Origin: Bradyrhizobium genosp. L
Lineage (GTDB): Bacteria; Pseudomonadota; Alphaproteobacteria; Rhizobiales; Xanthobacteraceae
Assembly: GCF_015624485.1 (NCBI RefSeq)
Contig: NZ_CP061378.1
Coordinates: 3,658,001 to 3,722,000 of the forward strand
Direction: 5' to 3'
Length of the DNA: 64,000 nt
The notes under the pieces were generated by a model. That model saw only the letters and a list, made by a program, of their open reading frames with translations, was not told the origin of the DNA and did no database searches. Below are positions 46,974-51,576 of this stretch, in pieces (position 1 is the first letter of the stretch; the number at the start of each line of letters is the position of its first letter). A program made the position numbers and the translations under genes.

Positions 46974-48026
46974 ATGGCAGAGCAGGCTGAGCCTTCGCCG
47001 TGGTGGACGCCATCACGCTACACCGACCGCAGGCCGTTCCTGCAGGCGCGGCGCGCGATCACCGCGGCGCTGAGGGCGTGGTTCGAGGAGCAAGGATTTG
47101 CCGAGGTCGAGACCGGGATCCTCCAGATCTCGCCTGGCAACGAGACGCATCTGCATGCGCCCCATACCGAGCTGTTGCGGGCCGACGGCTCCCGCGCGAC
47201 GCGCTATCTGCGGACGTCGCCCGAGTTCGCCTGCAAGAAGCTGCTCGCGGCCGGTGAGCCGAAAATCTACGAGTTCGCCCGCGTGTTCCGCGATCGCGAG
47301 CGCGGCGATCTGCACCTGCCCGAATTCACGATGCTGGAATGGTACCGCGCCCATGCCGGCTATGACGCCATCATGGCCGATACGATCGTGGTGATCGCGC
47401 ACGCCGCGCAGGCGACCGGGATCGGGCGGTTTTCGTTCCGCGGCAAGACCGCCGATCCCTTTGCCGAGCCGGAGCTGCTGACCGTCGCTGCCGCCTTTGA
47501 GCGGTTCGCCGGCATCGATCTGCTGGCGACGATCGCAGGCGGCGAGGGTGACCGCGATGCGCTGGCGGCGGCGGCGCGCGACAGGGTGCGCCTTGCCGAC
47601 GACGACACCTGGTCCGATATCTTCAGCAAGGTGCTGGTCGAGCATGTCGAGCCCAATCTCGGGCAGGGCCGCCTGACCGTGCTGTTCGAATATCCGTCGC
47701 CGGAGGCCGCGCTGGCACGCACCAAGGCGGCCGACCCCAGGGTCGCCGAGCGCTTCGAGGTCTATGCCTGCGGCGTCGAGCTCGCCAACGGTTTTGGCGA
47801 GTTGACCGATGCCGCCGAGCAGCGCCATCGTTTCACTGCCGCGATGGAGGAGAAGGCCCGCCGTTACGGCGAGCGCTATCCGCTCGACGAGGATTTCCTT
47901 GCCGCGGTCGGCTGGATGCCGGAGGCGAGCGGGGTTGCGCTTGGCTTCGACCGGCTGGTGATGCTGGCAAGCGGTGCGCCGCGCATTGATCAGGTGGTCT
48001 GGACTCCGCCTGCAGGAGAGACATGA
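46974..48026 (+). CDS. epmA: EF-P (R)-beta-lysine ligase
   Basis: EpmA/GenX/PoxA (350 aa), a truncated class II lysyl-tRNA-synthetase-like enzyme that attaches (R)-beta-lysine to EF-P. It lacks the anticodon-binding domain and begins directly with the catalytic core. Class II motifs are YLRTSPEFACKKLLAAG, FARVFRDRERGDLHLPEFTMLEWYRA and GVALGFDRLVMLASG. YACGVELANGFGELTDAAEQ is the usual active-site region. Its stop overlaps the epmB start, so both are co-translated. Confidence 0.94.
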   Translation: MAEQAEPSPWWTPSRYTDRRPFLQARRAITAALRAWFEEQGFAEVETGILQISPGNETHLHAPHTELLRADGSRATRYLRTSPEFACKKLLAAGEPKIYEFARVFRDRERGDLHLPEFTMLEWYRAHAGYDAIMADTIVVIAHAAQATGIGRFSFRGKTADPFAEPELLTVAAAFERFAGIDLLATIAGGEGDRDALAAAARDRVRLADDDTWSDIFSKVLVEHVEPNLGQGRLTVLFEYPSPEAALARTKAADPRVAERFEVYACGVELANGFGELTDAAEQRHRFTAAMEEKARRYGERYPLDEDFLAAVGWMPEASGVALGFDRLVMLASGAPRIDQVVWTPPAGET

Positions 48027-49114
48027 ACCGGATCGATCCCAAACTGGCGGCAACGCTGCGACAGCCGCGTGAGCTGGTCGATGCCGGGCTCGCGCCGGTC
48101 GACGCATTGACCGCGCTCGAACGGGTCGCCGCCCGTTATGCGGTCGCGGTGACGCCGGAGATCGCGGCCCTGATCGATCCGGCCGATCCCGATGACCCGA
48201 TCGCGCGGCAGTTCATCCCCGATGCCGCCGAGCTCATCGCGCAGCCGGGCGAGAACCCCGATCCGATCGGCGATGATGCACATTCGCCGGTGGCCGGGAT
48301 CGTCCACCGTTATCCCGACCGCGTGCTGTTCAAGCTGGTCCATGTCTGCGCGGTCTATTGCCGGTTCTGTTTCCGTCGCGAAATGGTCGGTCCCGGCAAG
48401 GCGACCGCTTTGTCGGACGATGCTTACCGCGCGGCGCTGGATTATATCCGCGGCCACGATGAGATCTGGGAAGTCATTCTGACCGGCGGCGATCCGTTGA
48501 TGCTGTCGCCGCGCCGGCTGACCGAGATCATGGCGGATCTCGCCGGTATCGATCATGTGAAGATCATCCGCATTCATACCCGCGTGCCCATCGCCGATCC
48601 CGCGCGTCTCAGCCCCGAGATGATCGCAGCGCTGAGGCCGCAGGGGGCGACGACCTGGATCGCCGTTCATGCCAACCACCCGCGCGAGTTCGGCGCCAAT
48701 GCCCGCGCGGCCTGCGCAGCGCTCGTCGATGCCGGCATCCCGCTGGTGAGCCAGTCGGTGCTGCTGCGCGGCGTCAACGATGACGCCGCCACGCTGGAGG
48801 CGCTGATGCGGACCTTCCTCGAGTGCCGGATCAAGCCCTATTATCTGCATCACGGCGATCGCGCCCCCGGTACTGCGCATTTGCGCACCACGATCGAAGC
48901 CGGGCAGGCGCTGATGCGCGCCTTGCGCGGCCGGGTCTCGGGTCTGTGCCAGCCGGACTACGTGCTCGACATCCCCGGCGGCCATGGCAAGGCGCCGATC
49001 GGACCGAGCTATTTGTCGCAGTCATCTTCCCGCGAACGTGAAGATTTGACGGAACGGCAATACCGTATCGTCGATTATTGCGGTGACGTGCACCTCTACC
49101 CGCCGGAAACATGA
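48023..49114 (+). CDS. epmB: EF-P lysine 2,3-aminomutase
   Basis: Radical-SAM, PLP-dependent aminomutase (363 aa) that converts lysine to (R)-beta-lysine for EpmA. The radical-SAM cysteines are C109, C113 and C116 in CAVYCRFCFRRE; VILTGGDPLMLS and HTRVPIADPARL follow as in the LAM family, and GTAHLRTTIEAGQ is near the C-terminus. Because of the efp and epmA neighbours, EpmB is far more likely than a catabolic lysine aminomutase. The ATG overlaps the epmA stop (ATGA). Confidence 0.94.
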   Translation: MNRIDPKLAATLRQPRELVDAGLAPVDALTALERVAARYAVAVTPEIAALIDPADPDDPIARQFIPDAAELIAQPGENPDPIGDDAHSPVAGIVHRYPDRVLFKLVHVCAVYCRFCFRREMVGPGKATALSDDAYRAALDYIRGHDEIWEVILTGGDPLMLSPRRLTEIMADLAGIDHVKIIRIHTRVPIADPARLSPEMIAALRPQGATTWIAVHANHPREFGANARAACAALVDAGIPLVSQSVLLRGVNDDAATLEALMRTFLECRIKPYYLHHGDRAPGTAHLRTTIEAGQALMRALRGRVSGLCQPDYVLDIPGGHGKAPIGPSYLSQSSSREREDLTERQYRIVDYCGDVHLYPPET

Positions 49115-49683: not shown

Positions 49684-50769
49684 TCAGGCCGAACGTTCCT
49701 GCAGGCCGGCGCGCCGCACACGTCGCCTGCCATCGACTGCATCCGCCAGCCGCTTCAACACGTCGGCCGTCGTCTTGAGGTCGATGCAGCCGTCGGTGAT
49801 GCTCTGGCCATAGGTCAACGGCTTGCCCGGCACGACGTCCTGGCGGCCTGCGACGAGATTGCTCTCGATCATCACGCCGATGATGCGCTGCTCGCCGCCT
49901 GAGACCTGACGCGCGATTTCGTCGGCGACCATCGGCTGGTTCTCAGGCTTCTTGCTCGAGTTGGCGTGGCTGGTGTCGATCATCAGCCGCGGCGCGACGC
50001 CGGCACGGCCGAGCTCGGTCGCGGCGGCATCGACGCTGGCCGCATCGTAATTCGGCGCCCGGCCGCCGCGCAGGATGACGTGGCAGTCCTCGTTGCCGCT
50101 GGTGGCGGCAATCGCCGAGCGGCCGCCCTTGGTGACCGCCATGAAGTGATGCGGGTGCGAGGCCGACTTCACCGCGTCGGCTGCGATCCGCATGTTTCCG
50201 TCGGTGCCGTTCTTGAAGCCGACCGGGCAGGACAGGCCCGAAGCCAGCTCGCGATGGATCTGGCTCTCGGTGGTGCGCGCGCCTATTGCGGCCCAGGAGA
50301 CCAGATCGGCGATGTATTGCGGCGTCGTCATGTCGAGGAATTCGGTGCCGGCCGGCAGGCCGAGATTGTTCACGGCCGACAGCACGTTGCGCGCAAGCCG
50401 CAGGCCCTTGTTGATGTCGAAGCTGTTGTCGAGGCCGGGATCGTTGATCAGGCCTTTCCAGCCGACGGTGGTGCGCGGCTTCTCGAAATAGACCCGCATC
50501 ACGATCTCGAGGCGGTCGGCGAGCGCTTCGCGCAAGCCGGCGAGGTGACCGGCGTAGTCGACGGCCGCCGCGGGATCGTGGATCGAGCAGGGGCCGACCA
50601 CGACCAGCAGGCGGTCATCGGCTCCGTTGAGGATGGCGTGGATGGCGTTGCGGGCGCCCATCACGACCCGGGTCGCGGTCAGGGTGCGCGGAATCTCCCC
50701 TATCACCTCTTCGGGTGTACTGAGTTCCTTGAGTTCTTTGATGCGAAGGTCGTCTGTGGTGCTCAACAC
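49684..50769 (-). CDS. aroG: DAHP synthase, class I (AroG type)
   Basis: 3-deoxy-D-arabino-heptulosonate-7-phosphate synthase (361 aa), first step of aromatic amino-acid synthesis from PEP and erythrose-4-phosphate. DDLRIKELKEL, VVGPCSIHDP, VMRVYFEKPRTTVGWKGLIND, GARTTESQIHRELASGLS, GFKNGTDG and MIDTSHANSSK match E. coli AroG/AroF. The start is GTG at 50769, with AAAGGAG 6 bases upstream; an earlier TTG lies in the terminator region. A leader peptide rich in Tyr/Phe/Trp codons and an intrinsic terminator precede it, so expression is very likely attenuated by charged aromatic tRNAs. Confidence 0.94.
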   Translation of the reverse strand: MLSTTDDLRIKELKELSTPEEVIGEIPRTLTATRVVMGARNAIHAILNGADDRLLVVVGPCSIHDPAAAVDYAGHLAGLREALADRLEIVMRVYFEKPRTTVGWKGLINDPGLDNSFDINKGLRLARNVLSAVNNLGLPAGTEFLDMTTPQYIADLVSWAAIGARTTESQIHRELASGLSCPVGFKNGTDGNMRIAADAVKSASHPHHFMAVTKGGRSAIAATSGNEDCHVILRGGRAPNYDAASVDAAATELGRAGVAPRLMIDTSHANSSKKPENQPMVADEIARQVSGGEQRIIGVMIESNLVAGRQDVVPGKPLTYGQSITDGCIDLKTTADVLKRLADAVDGRRRVRRAGLQERSA

Positions 50770-50803
50770 GGCTTGGCTCCTTTGGATTGGGACCTGCCGG
50801 CAC

Positions 50804-50829
50804 AAAAAAGCCGCCAGGTCTGGCGGCTT
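50804..50829 (-). terminator. Attenuator terminator in the aroG leader
   Basis: On the minus strand AAGCCGCCA and TGGCGGCTT form a perfect 9-bp stem with loop GACC, followed directly by a T-run. It lies between the leader peptide and aroG, not after a gene. Its 5' arm GCCGCCAG (50820-50827) is exactly complementary to CTGGCGGC (50876-50883) inside the leader, giving a competing antiterminator. Confidence 0.85.
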
Positions 50830-50853
50830 GGTTCGGACGTTTGCTGCAATTCT

Positions 50854-50934
50854 TCAGATTGAGCGCGATCCTCCTGCCGCCAGCGAGCTGTCGTAGCTAA
50901 AGTACCAAAAATAGCTGGTGGCGACGGTGATCAT
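50854..50934 (-). CDS. Aromatic leader peptide of aroG
   Basis: 26-codon leader peptide MITVATSYFWYFSYDSSLAA (first 20 residues), ending with TGA. Six of seven consecutive codons from residue 8 are aromatic (Tyr Phe Trp Tyr Phe, Ser, Tyr). It precedes a terminator and the DAHP synthase gene on the same strand. A ribosome slowed at these codons would free CTGGCGGC to pair with the terminator arm, allowing read-through. The codons GTC GCC ACC AGC upstream can also pair with CTGGCGGC (one mismatch), giving a 1:2 hairpin. The -10 box ends 8 bases before the ATG, so the mRNA is probably leaderless. Confidence 0.85.
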   Translation of the reverse strand: MITVATSYFWYFSYDSSLAAGGSRSI

Positions 50935-50942
50935 GAGGCGGC

Positions 50943-50971
50943 TCTATAGCGCACGGATATGGGTCTGTCAT
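50943..50971 (-). promoter_or_regulatory. Promoter of the aroG leader
   Basis: On the minus strand ATGACA (50966-50971) and TATAGA (50943-50948) are 17 bases apart and close to TTGACA/TATAAT. The predicted transcription start coincides with the leader-peptide ATG. Confidence 0.65.
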
Positions 50972-51003: not shown

Positions 51004-51576
51004 TCAGGTGTTGCGCGCGGCCAACGCCATGCCGATCAGGGTGGCGCCGCCGAACATCAGGTTGAGGCCGACGAGCAGGCCGATCGCCCATTCCGCCGAG
51101 CCCGGCAGGCCGGCGACGATGAAGAAGGCGATCACGATGTCCATCAGGCCGGCGATCAGGAGCCATGACCAGCGTCCCGACAATTCACGGCGATGCTCCA
51201 GCGCGTACATGATGGTGGCGACGCCTTCGGCGACGAAATAGGCGCCGATCACGATGGTCAGCGTCAGCACGCCCTGCATCGGCCGCGCCAGCAGTACCAT
51301 TCCGGCCAGTACGGCGAGCGCGGCCGAGATCAGCGACCACCAGAAGCCCGGCATGTTGCGGGCCCAGAACGTCACGATCAGGCCGCCGATGCCCGAAATC
51401 AGGAACATCCAGCCGAGGAAGATGGTGACGGCGAGGCTCGCCAATGCCGGCACGATCAGCGCCGCGATGCCGAGCACCACCAGCAAAATGCCTTCGAACA
51501 GGAACGCCTTCCAGTGCTGCTTGACCGCGGCGCCCATCTGCGAGCGCAGCTTGTCGAGATCGTGGGGAAGGGTCAT
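51004..51576 (-). CDS. HdeD-family membrane protein
   Basis: Inner-membrane protein of 190 aa with six predicted helices in three pairs (for example FEGILLVVLGIAALIVPALAS and LLIAGLMDIVIAFFIVAG), matching the DUF308/HdeD family. HdeD contributes to acid resistance at high cell density in E. coli; the role elsewhere is unclear. The N-terminal 20 residues are cytoplasmic and polar. It lies 35 bases downstream of the PrsW-like gene on the same strand and may be co-transcribed. Confidence 0.88.
   Translation of the reverse strand: MTLPHDLDKLRSQMGAAVKQHWKAFLFEGILLVVLGIAALIVPALASLAVTIFLGWMFLISGIGGLIVTFWARNMPGFWWSLISAALAVLAGMVLLARPMQGVLTLTIVIGAYFVAEGVATIMYALEHRRELSGRWSWLLIAGLMDIVIAFFIVAGLPGSAEWAIGLLVGLNLMFGGATLIGMALAARNT

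Follow-up and report, generated by a model that had tools for sequence, protein, structure and literature searches.

The locus and its parts

The window analysed here is a stretch of 64,000 nucleotides from Bradyrhizobium genosp. L, whose genome is a single contig of 7.40 Mb. On its minus strand lies aroG, a gene for the first enzyme of the aromatic pathway, preceded by a short reading frame in which aromatic codons follow one another almost without interruption. The features, in the direction of transcription, are these.

51004–51576, minus strand: upstream DUF308 gene, its 3' end about 70 bases ahead of the leader frame
50966–50971, minus strand: −35 box, ATGACA, part of the best match of the promoter scan (17-base spacer)
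50943–50948, minus strand: −10 box, TATAGA, with 8 bases between its end and the leader ATG
50854–50934, minus strand: leader peptide frame, 26 codons and a stop, translation MITVATSYFWYFSYDSSLAAGGSRSI
50914–50925, minus strand: segment 1, a possible partner of segment 2 by folds in the window
50893–50913, minus strand: putative regulatory codons 8–14 of the frame translation, Tyr-Phe-Trp-Tyr-Phe-Ser-Tyr
50876–50883, minus strand: segment 2, CTGGCGGC, 5' arm of the antiterminator, starting 9 bases past the last aromatic codon
50820–50827, minus strand: segment 3, GCCGCCAG, perfect complement of segment 2, common to antiterminator and terminator
50808–50829, minus strand: intrinsic terminator, nine perfect pairs and a loop of 4, 24 bases after the leader stop codon
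50804–50809, minus strand: T-run of the terminator
50777–50783, minus strand: AAAGGAG, likely ribosome-binding site of aroG, read by eye
49684–50769, minus strand: aroG, 361 amino acids, GTG start, class I 3-deoxy-7-phosphoheptulonate (DAHP) synthase

A first-pass annotation, made from the letters of the window, had proposed an attenuator here. Checked base by base on the minus strand, every part that it named lies where it had been placed: the 26-codon frame (50934–50854) with its run of aromatic residues, the perfect 9-bp terminator with T-run 24 bases past the stop, the perfectly complementary 8-bp antiterminator (50876–50883 with 50820–50827), and the promoter, which reads ATGACA, 17 bases, TATAGA, 8 bases, ATG. 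From the terminator and T-run it is 34 bases to the start of aroG.

Is the downstream gene a DAHP synthase, as had been claimed? Its product scores 302 bits against Pfam DAHP_synth_1, 521 bits against NCBIfam aroFGH (cut-off 173) and 467 bits against structures of Phe-regulated DAHP synthase, scores that establish it as a class I enzyme. Against the AroG equivalog it reaches 537 bits, under the cut-off of 568; since it passes the aroFGH cut-off and misses that one, we use the letter G by convention. Besides this single class I gene the genome has one DAHP synthase of class II. The class II gene (G000:C1:3123930-3125243, locus L082) has no leader directly upstream when its surroundings are read by eye.

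The aromatic frame is unlikely to be a chance occurrence

How often would such a frame arise by accident? Every start codon being taken, the window holds 2161 frames of 10–60 codons, and the leader is the only frame in which 6 or more of 7 consecutive residues are aromatic; ten Markov-resampled windows yielded none. By the same measure, the aroG loci of relatives (80 loci, 467,780 bases) contain 35 such frames. Thirty-four of these, in 34 loci, lie no more than 400 bases upstream of aroG on the same strand, the remaining one being an Erwinia frame (L070) 1250 bases upstream. The folding of the leader is less exceptional, with a z-score of −2.2 and 5 of 200 shuffles folding equally well.

These counts bear on the simplest alternative, that the hairpin is the ordinary terminator of the DUF308 gene and the aromatic frame an accident. 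That gene does share the strand of the leader, and only some 70 bases separate its end from the frame. Yet no frame of this kind appeared in the ten resampled windows, a promoter-like sequence stands between the DUF308 gene and the leader, and leader and aroG occur together in three proteobacterial classes. Such an accident should moreover have let close relatives lose the codons while retaining the terminator, and the opposite was found. We regard this explanation as barely conceivable.

Conservation within Bradyrhizobium

The reading as an attenuator had been made to depend on whether aromatic codons and stems are conserved in close relatives. Among 117 sampled Bradyrhizobium genomes 111 possess aroG, and a leader model built from 33 diverse leaders, which we call R1, matches exactly those 111 and none of the six without the gene; in the genome of the window it has one match. 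The outcome clearly favours that reading: leader and aroG co-occur in this way (111/111 with, 0/6 without), and the codons, the terminator and the core of the antiterminator are conserved. Upstream regions were inspected for 110 of the 111 genomes, 106 at first (all 106 with an aromatic leader) and then L112–L115; G090, whose aroG is cut by a contig end and whose leader sits on another contig, was excluded.

Codons for Trp-Tyr-Phe occur in 109 of these 110 regions. The exception, G041, has FSWFYYF, and its aroG shows 66% identity; in a further member of the genus, L211 from the phylum sample, Trp-Asn-Phe replaces Trp-Tyr-Phe. The ATG and the position of the stop are kept in all 109 anchored sequences (76 distinct), while the stop itself is spelled TGA in 95, TAA in 9 and TAG in 5, and the Tyr codon of Trp-Tyr-Phe is TAC in 79 and TAT in 30. 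Trp10, Tyr11 and Phe12 are fixed; position 14 is variable, with Tyr in 98, Phe in 8, Asn in 2 and Cys in 1. A fixed start and stop position, a varied type of stop and a synonymous Tyr change are, as far as comparison of sequences can tell, what a translated frame, preserved for the residues it encodes, would show.

The Phe codon of Trp-Tyr-Phe is TTT in 108 of the 109 genus leaders and TTC in one. Long frames with an ATG start, taken from all six reading frames of the window and perhaps in part spurious, have TTC 434 times and TTT 86 times; aroG itself has TTC 5 times and TTT never.

Some genomes of the genus gave extra R1 matches at E 0.001. Those in G098 and G065 are true second copies, described below. 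Two in G087 and one in G039 resemble, by eye, a terminator behind the end of some other gene, presumably one with a PEP-CTERM tail, and were rejected as leaders. Further weak matches at the same threshold were seen in G010, G035 and G081.

The competing hairpins

If the frame is a leader, do the RNA segments behind it pair as an attenuator would require? In the window the predicted energies are −20.6 kcal/mol for 1:2, −26.6 for 2:3 and −15.3 for 3:4. Beyond it we used an alignment of 33 relatives and a set of 179 distinct pieces reaching from leader to terminator, of which 95 come from Bradyrhizobium and 84 from outside it.

The terminator is well kept: 98.5% of its cells are paired in the 33 relatives, it covaries at one pair (GC to AU in 8 of the 33), and it is the only element that RNAalifold recovers from these sequences. 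The five core pairs of the antiterminator form in 31–33 of the 33. Across the 179 pieces the segment 2:3 helix averages 21.2, against 13.3 when segment 2 is shuffled (s.d. of the mean 0.2), and in 174 pieces the 2:3 energy is lower than the average of 20 shuffles. Kinship among the pieces makes the shuffles overstate the significance. A GGCGG core stands exactly 11 bases past the last aromatic codon in 86 of the 95 genus pieces and 38 of the 84 others.

Compensatory changes in the stems, which the first-pass annotation had suggested looking for, thus exist for the terminator, at the one pair, and are wanting for the antiterminator, where 1 of 255 cells in the 33-row alignment is changed on both sides. 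A swap test on the 47 pieces with a non-consensus segment 3, many of them close kin, agrees: 44 showed no clear preference for their own partner, only L028, L047 and L200 clearly preferring it. The median share of other partners that did as well was 0.63; in four further pieces the share was 20–24%. We conclude that the antiterminator, as judged from these alignments, is conserved mainly by invariance.

The 1:2 hairpin, also part of the original proposal, fared less well. It folds in the window, but the pairing is not kept: in the 33 aligned relatives 56% of its cells are paired, equal to shuffles, and no covariation was found. In 159 of the 179 pieces the region folds locally with an energy under the average of 20 shuffles. 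A protector hairpin of this kind is present in many leader-peptide attenuators, not in all.

By raw count, 149 of the 179 pieces have a TCC motif no more than about 16 bases upstream of the terminator (about 50830–50845 in the window). It could extend the antiterminator through the GGA repeats that follow segment 2.

Three sequence features of a ribosome-mediated attenuator are here: a short frame upstream of aroG with codons for the end products of its pathway, an intrinsic terminator between that frame and the gene, and a competing antiterminator that uses the 5' arm of the terminator. Compensating changes in the antiterminator, which would be supporting rather than defining, were rare. Taking parts, complementarity, spacing and conservation together, we regard this as almost certainly a ribosome-mediated transcription attenuator, which would control aroG.

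Transcript start and a possible role in trans

Where would the leader transcript begin? The best promoter match, with a 17-base spacer, lies 6–9 bases from the ATG in 80 of the 95 genus pieces and in 43 of the 84 others. Its mean match is 7.9 of 12, on a score that includes a bonus of 0.1 for the 17-base spacer, compared with 4.4–5.0 at four shifted positions. The standard promoter scan, which accepts only −10 boxes whose sixth base is T, reports none at the leader. Because the −10 box stands only 6–9 bases from the ATG, a leaderless or nearly leaderless mRNA is predicted for Bradyrhizobium and for some of the other pieces; the leaders of Burkholderia have, by eye, a longer gap between promoter and ATG. 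A paper on start sites in B. japonicum (PMC4842269) makes no mention of aroG in its main text by term search.

The trp leader of Sinorhizobium, rnTrpL, is reported as a leaderless leader mRNA (PMC7298713). The present leader resembles it in that respect, its own leaderless transcript being predicted from the position of the promoter. The two differ in that the rhizobial trpL has Trp-Trp only and precedes trpE, and in that action in trans has been shown for rnTrpL and its peptide peTrpL.

Might the terminated leader RNA or the 26-residue peptide likewise act in trans, attenuation being only part of its role? The predicted leaderless start, as in rnTrpL (PMC7298713), would fit such a role, and so would the C-terminal half of the peptide, which is nearly invariant in the genus. 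That half is however nearly invariant in its bases too, with few synonymous changes, as RNA pairing predicts. We consider an additional trans function improbable.

Positions of the ribosome

On our reading as an attenuator, transcription would begin at the leader ATG or beside it, and a ribosome would translate the 26 codons. When Tyr-, Phe- or Trp-charged tRNA is scarce the ribosome would stall at codons 8–12, leaving segment 2 free to pair with segment 3 during the transcription of the latter; this 2:3 pairing would block the terminator, so that aroG would be transcribed. When all three are plentiful the ribosome would cover segment 2, segment 3 would pair with segment 4, and transcription would presumably end at the T-run of this 3:4 terminator.

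Which codons are placed to serve? We folded the leader with a ribosome whose edge was assumed to lie 10 bases beyond the A site. With the A site at codon 8, 10, 11, 12 or 13 the best fold contains the antiterminator (6–8 of 8 pairs) and no terminator; at codon 9, 14 or 15 the best fold is the terminator. At Phe9, where the fold is the wrong one, the margins of the model are small. In these model folds Tyr8, Trp10, Tyr11 and Phe12 are well placed for stalling. By the same modelling, codons 8–12 are likely to be the working regulatory codons, and Tyr14 is probably too far downstream to act.

The other state is less simply accounted for. The distance between the GGCGG core and the stop is 20 bases in 130 of the 179 pieces. 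Since a ribosome at the stop would leave segment 2 exposed in most pieces, and since the 1:2 pairing is unconserved, the off-state may rest on timing.

Occurrence beyond the genus

Is the leader confined to Bradyrhizobium? Similar leaders precede aroG in Mesorhizobium, Devosia, Xanthomonadales and Burkholderiales, and the codon run, the stop, the terminator and the antiterminator core are conserved in alpha-, beta- and gammaproteobacterial relatives. When no more is asked than 4 aromatic residues in 9, at most about 400 bases ahead of the gene, a leader frame is present in 62 of the 80 relatives' loci; among these the weak frames in L052 and L081 are probably not leaders. For L031 the upstream sequence was only 52 bases long. 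The 18 loci without a frame take in all 6 enteric and Vibrio loci.

In a sample of the order, 22 of 199 genomes possess aroG, and in all 22 the leader is directly upstream. Beyond them R1 gave matches at E 0.001 in 14 more genomes: a tyrS leader in G230, a Trp-Trp-Trp frame before a trpE-like gene in G299, and others in G120, G199, G202, G225, G261, G265, G304 and G308. The matches in G140, G182 and G155, without an aromatic run, and that in G196, which resembles the end of a membrane protein gene, were counted as chance. Weak second matches occur in G235, G250 and G267.

A sample of the phylum has an aroG-like match in 224 of 398 genomes and an R1 match at E 1e-5 or better in 55. Forty-five of the 55 lie directly before aroG by position; for the other ten the gene was assigned by eye, as aroG in three, pheS in five and pheA in two, giving 48 aroG, 5 pheST and 2 pheA leaders. 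We take the pheS and pheA leaders to be pheM and pheL. Their retrieval is an unplanned positive control: at this threshold only leaders of aroG, pheST and pheA were recovered.

How might the leader have come to be so distributed? In a tree of 118 AroG proteins, made by a quick method and with several long branches, the proteins of alphaproteobacteria and Xanthomonadales join with a support of 99, and those of Mesorhizobium fall inside Bradyrhizobium (support 93, not starred). Leader labels on this tree count ATG starts only (L040, with a GTG start, is thus labelled as having none) and count Phe, Trp and Tyr anywhere in the frame; so defined, 54 of the 55 rows of the alpha and Xanthomonadales clade have all three residues, the other row being without an ATG frame. 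The placement in the tree, together with the presence of aroG in 22 of 199 genomes of the order, suggests that aroG and its leader moved together, although a single ancestral gain of both, followed by many losses, may instead account for the pattern. The leader DNA had no match in 72,556 plasmid records.

Known attenuators and the amino acids sensed

Related predictions may stand in Panina 2001, Vitreschak 2004 and Neshat 2014, the last being the original account of the Corynebacterium glutamicum leader. In Corynebacterium glutamicum the leader peptide aroR forms an attenuator before aroF, a DAHP synthase gene (PMC4046766 and PMC11802643). Both that system and ours place aromatic codons in an attenuator before such a gene. 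They differ, comparing by description only, in that aroR is actinobacterial and has Phe-Tyr-Phe, with no Trp codon mentioned in the accessible text. Leaders of Shewanella aroF and aroH (PMC2659441) and of a Vibrio operon of a DAHP synthase gene and tyrA (PMC1173090) are predictions, the last one from a database. Among the matches listed in the open literature, as far as their accessible text goes, none describes an aroG leader from alpha- or betaproteobacteria or Xanthomonadales, and a term search of the accessible text of PMC2965389 and PMC1262725 gave no aroG. Attenuation of a DAHP synthase gene is already known, from Corynebacterium; what appears new is a widely spread version with codons for three amino acids.

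The E. coli leaders pheL (of pheA) and pheM (of pheST) have the same order of parts, and R1 retrieves leaders of pheS and pheA; unlike the present leader they are Phe-rich, contain no Trp and control different genes. With 20 bits against a cut-off of 55 the leader in the window falls outside Rfam Phe_leader (RF01859), and no Rfam family reaches its gathering cut-off in it or in 16 relatives' loci. A weak full-length match to BcKCsr7, at 23 bits against a cut-off of 59, raised the idea that this named small RNA of Burkholderia is the same leader. Since the family was not matched at E 5 or better in L025, a leader of Caballeronia aroG, and since the 16 relatives gave no Rfam match at the gathering cut-off, the match was taken as chance.

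Does the leader then sense all three amino acids? It might sense mainly Phe and Tyr, or Phe alone, leaving the Trp codon (or the Tyr codons) without regulatory weight. pheL, pheM and the C. glutamicum aroR all sense Phe, and a review reports that aroR, the sole DAHP synthase attenuator for which we met a description of tests, responds to Phe and not to Tyr for all its Phe-Tyr-Phe (PMC11802643). Of the 84 distinct pieces from elsewhere than the genus 20 combine Phe and Tyr without Trp, a lone Trp codon may stall a ribosome less than a run would, and a Trp-Trp frame of its own stands near a trpE-like gene in the genome of the window. On the other hand the Trp codon is present in 109 of 110 upstream regions of the genus, 54 of the 55 rows of the alpha and Xanthomonadales clade combine Phe, Trp and Tyr, and in the modelled folds a stall at Trp10 gives the antiterminator. 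We think this narrower specificity possible but clearly the weaker account. The leader is likely to sense shortage of Tyr, Phe and Trp. On the fuller proposal, that the leader would be an OR gate for the three and that leader and aroG would form an inherited unit which moved between families and classes of Proteobacteria, we stand evenly divided.

The Trp-Trp frame just mentioned, MSTVASPSRRWWPTFP, lies at L229:1005-1055 in the locus of the trpE-like gene and is similar to Bja-peTrpL, MSTAVAPARLWWRTS.

What would such a leader achieve? E. coli has three DAHP synthases and divides control of the aromatic pathway among them by means of repressors and feedback. In the present case all three end products appear to act on one gene by way of one RNA switch. 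If the OR-gate reading is true, lack of any one of the three amino acids opens the first step of the pathway, and leader and aroG make up a ready-made, regulated entry enzyme, in Bradyrhizobium alongside a class II DAHP synthase that has no such leader. The leader offers a clean test case for one leader reading several tRNAs, and possibly a portable sensor of the total supply of aromatic amino acids.

Related leaders and neighbouring genes

The leader of tyrS, the gene of tyrosyl-tRNA synthetase, in G230 belongs to a wider group. In its family, another one of Hyphomicrobiales (our f41), R1 matches 47 of 61 genomes at E 0.01. The best 21 loci (from the 20 best-scoring of the 61 genomes, one of them twice) all have an aromatic leader, and 20 show a simple terminator pattern. 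The leaders (L266:824-954, L276–L294) encode a peptide whose typical form is M..FVYFYYVT.IPAAA; the terminator has the form GCCGCC..GGCGGC, and near the ATG stands a promoter of CTTGAC type. This is likely to be a Tyr/Phe attenuator of tyrS.

The second copies of promoter, leader and terminator in two Bradyrhizobium genomes (L264:997-1136; L265, minus strand, G065:C54:107848-107990) have an aromatic run eroded towards Arg and His, MITVATRRFWHFTHRN... and MITVATHRFGRWTHRS..., and precede a DUF1127 gene whose start resembles, by eye, the N-terminus of AroG (TDDLRI, STTDD). We read them as a captured or re-aimed attenuator.

Elsewhere in the window two overlapping genes lie on the plus strand (46974–49114). 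One product is an EF-P lysine ligase resembling EpmA, which scores 375 bits against genX (cut-off 287); the other resembles lysine-2,3-aminomutase and scores 560 bits against AblA_like_2 (cut-off 396).
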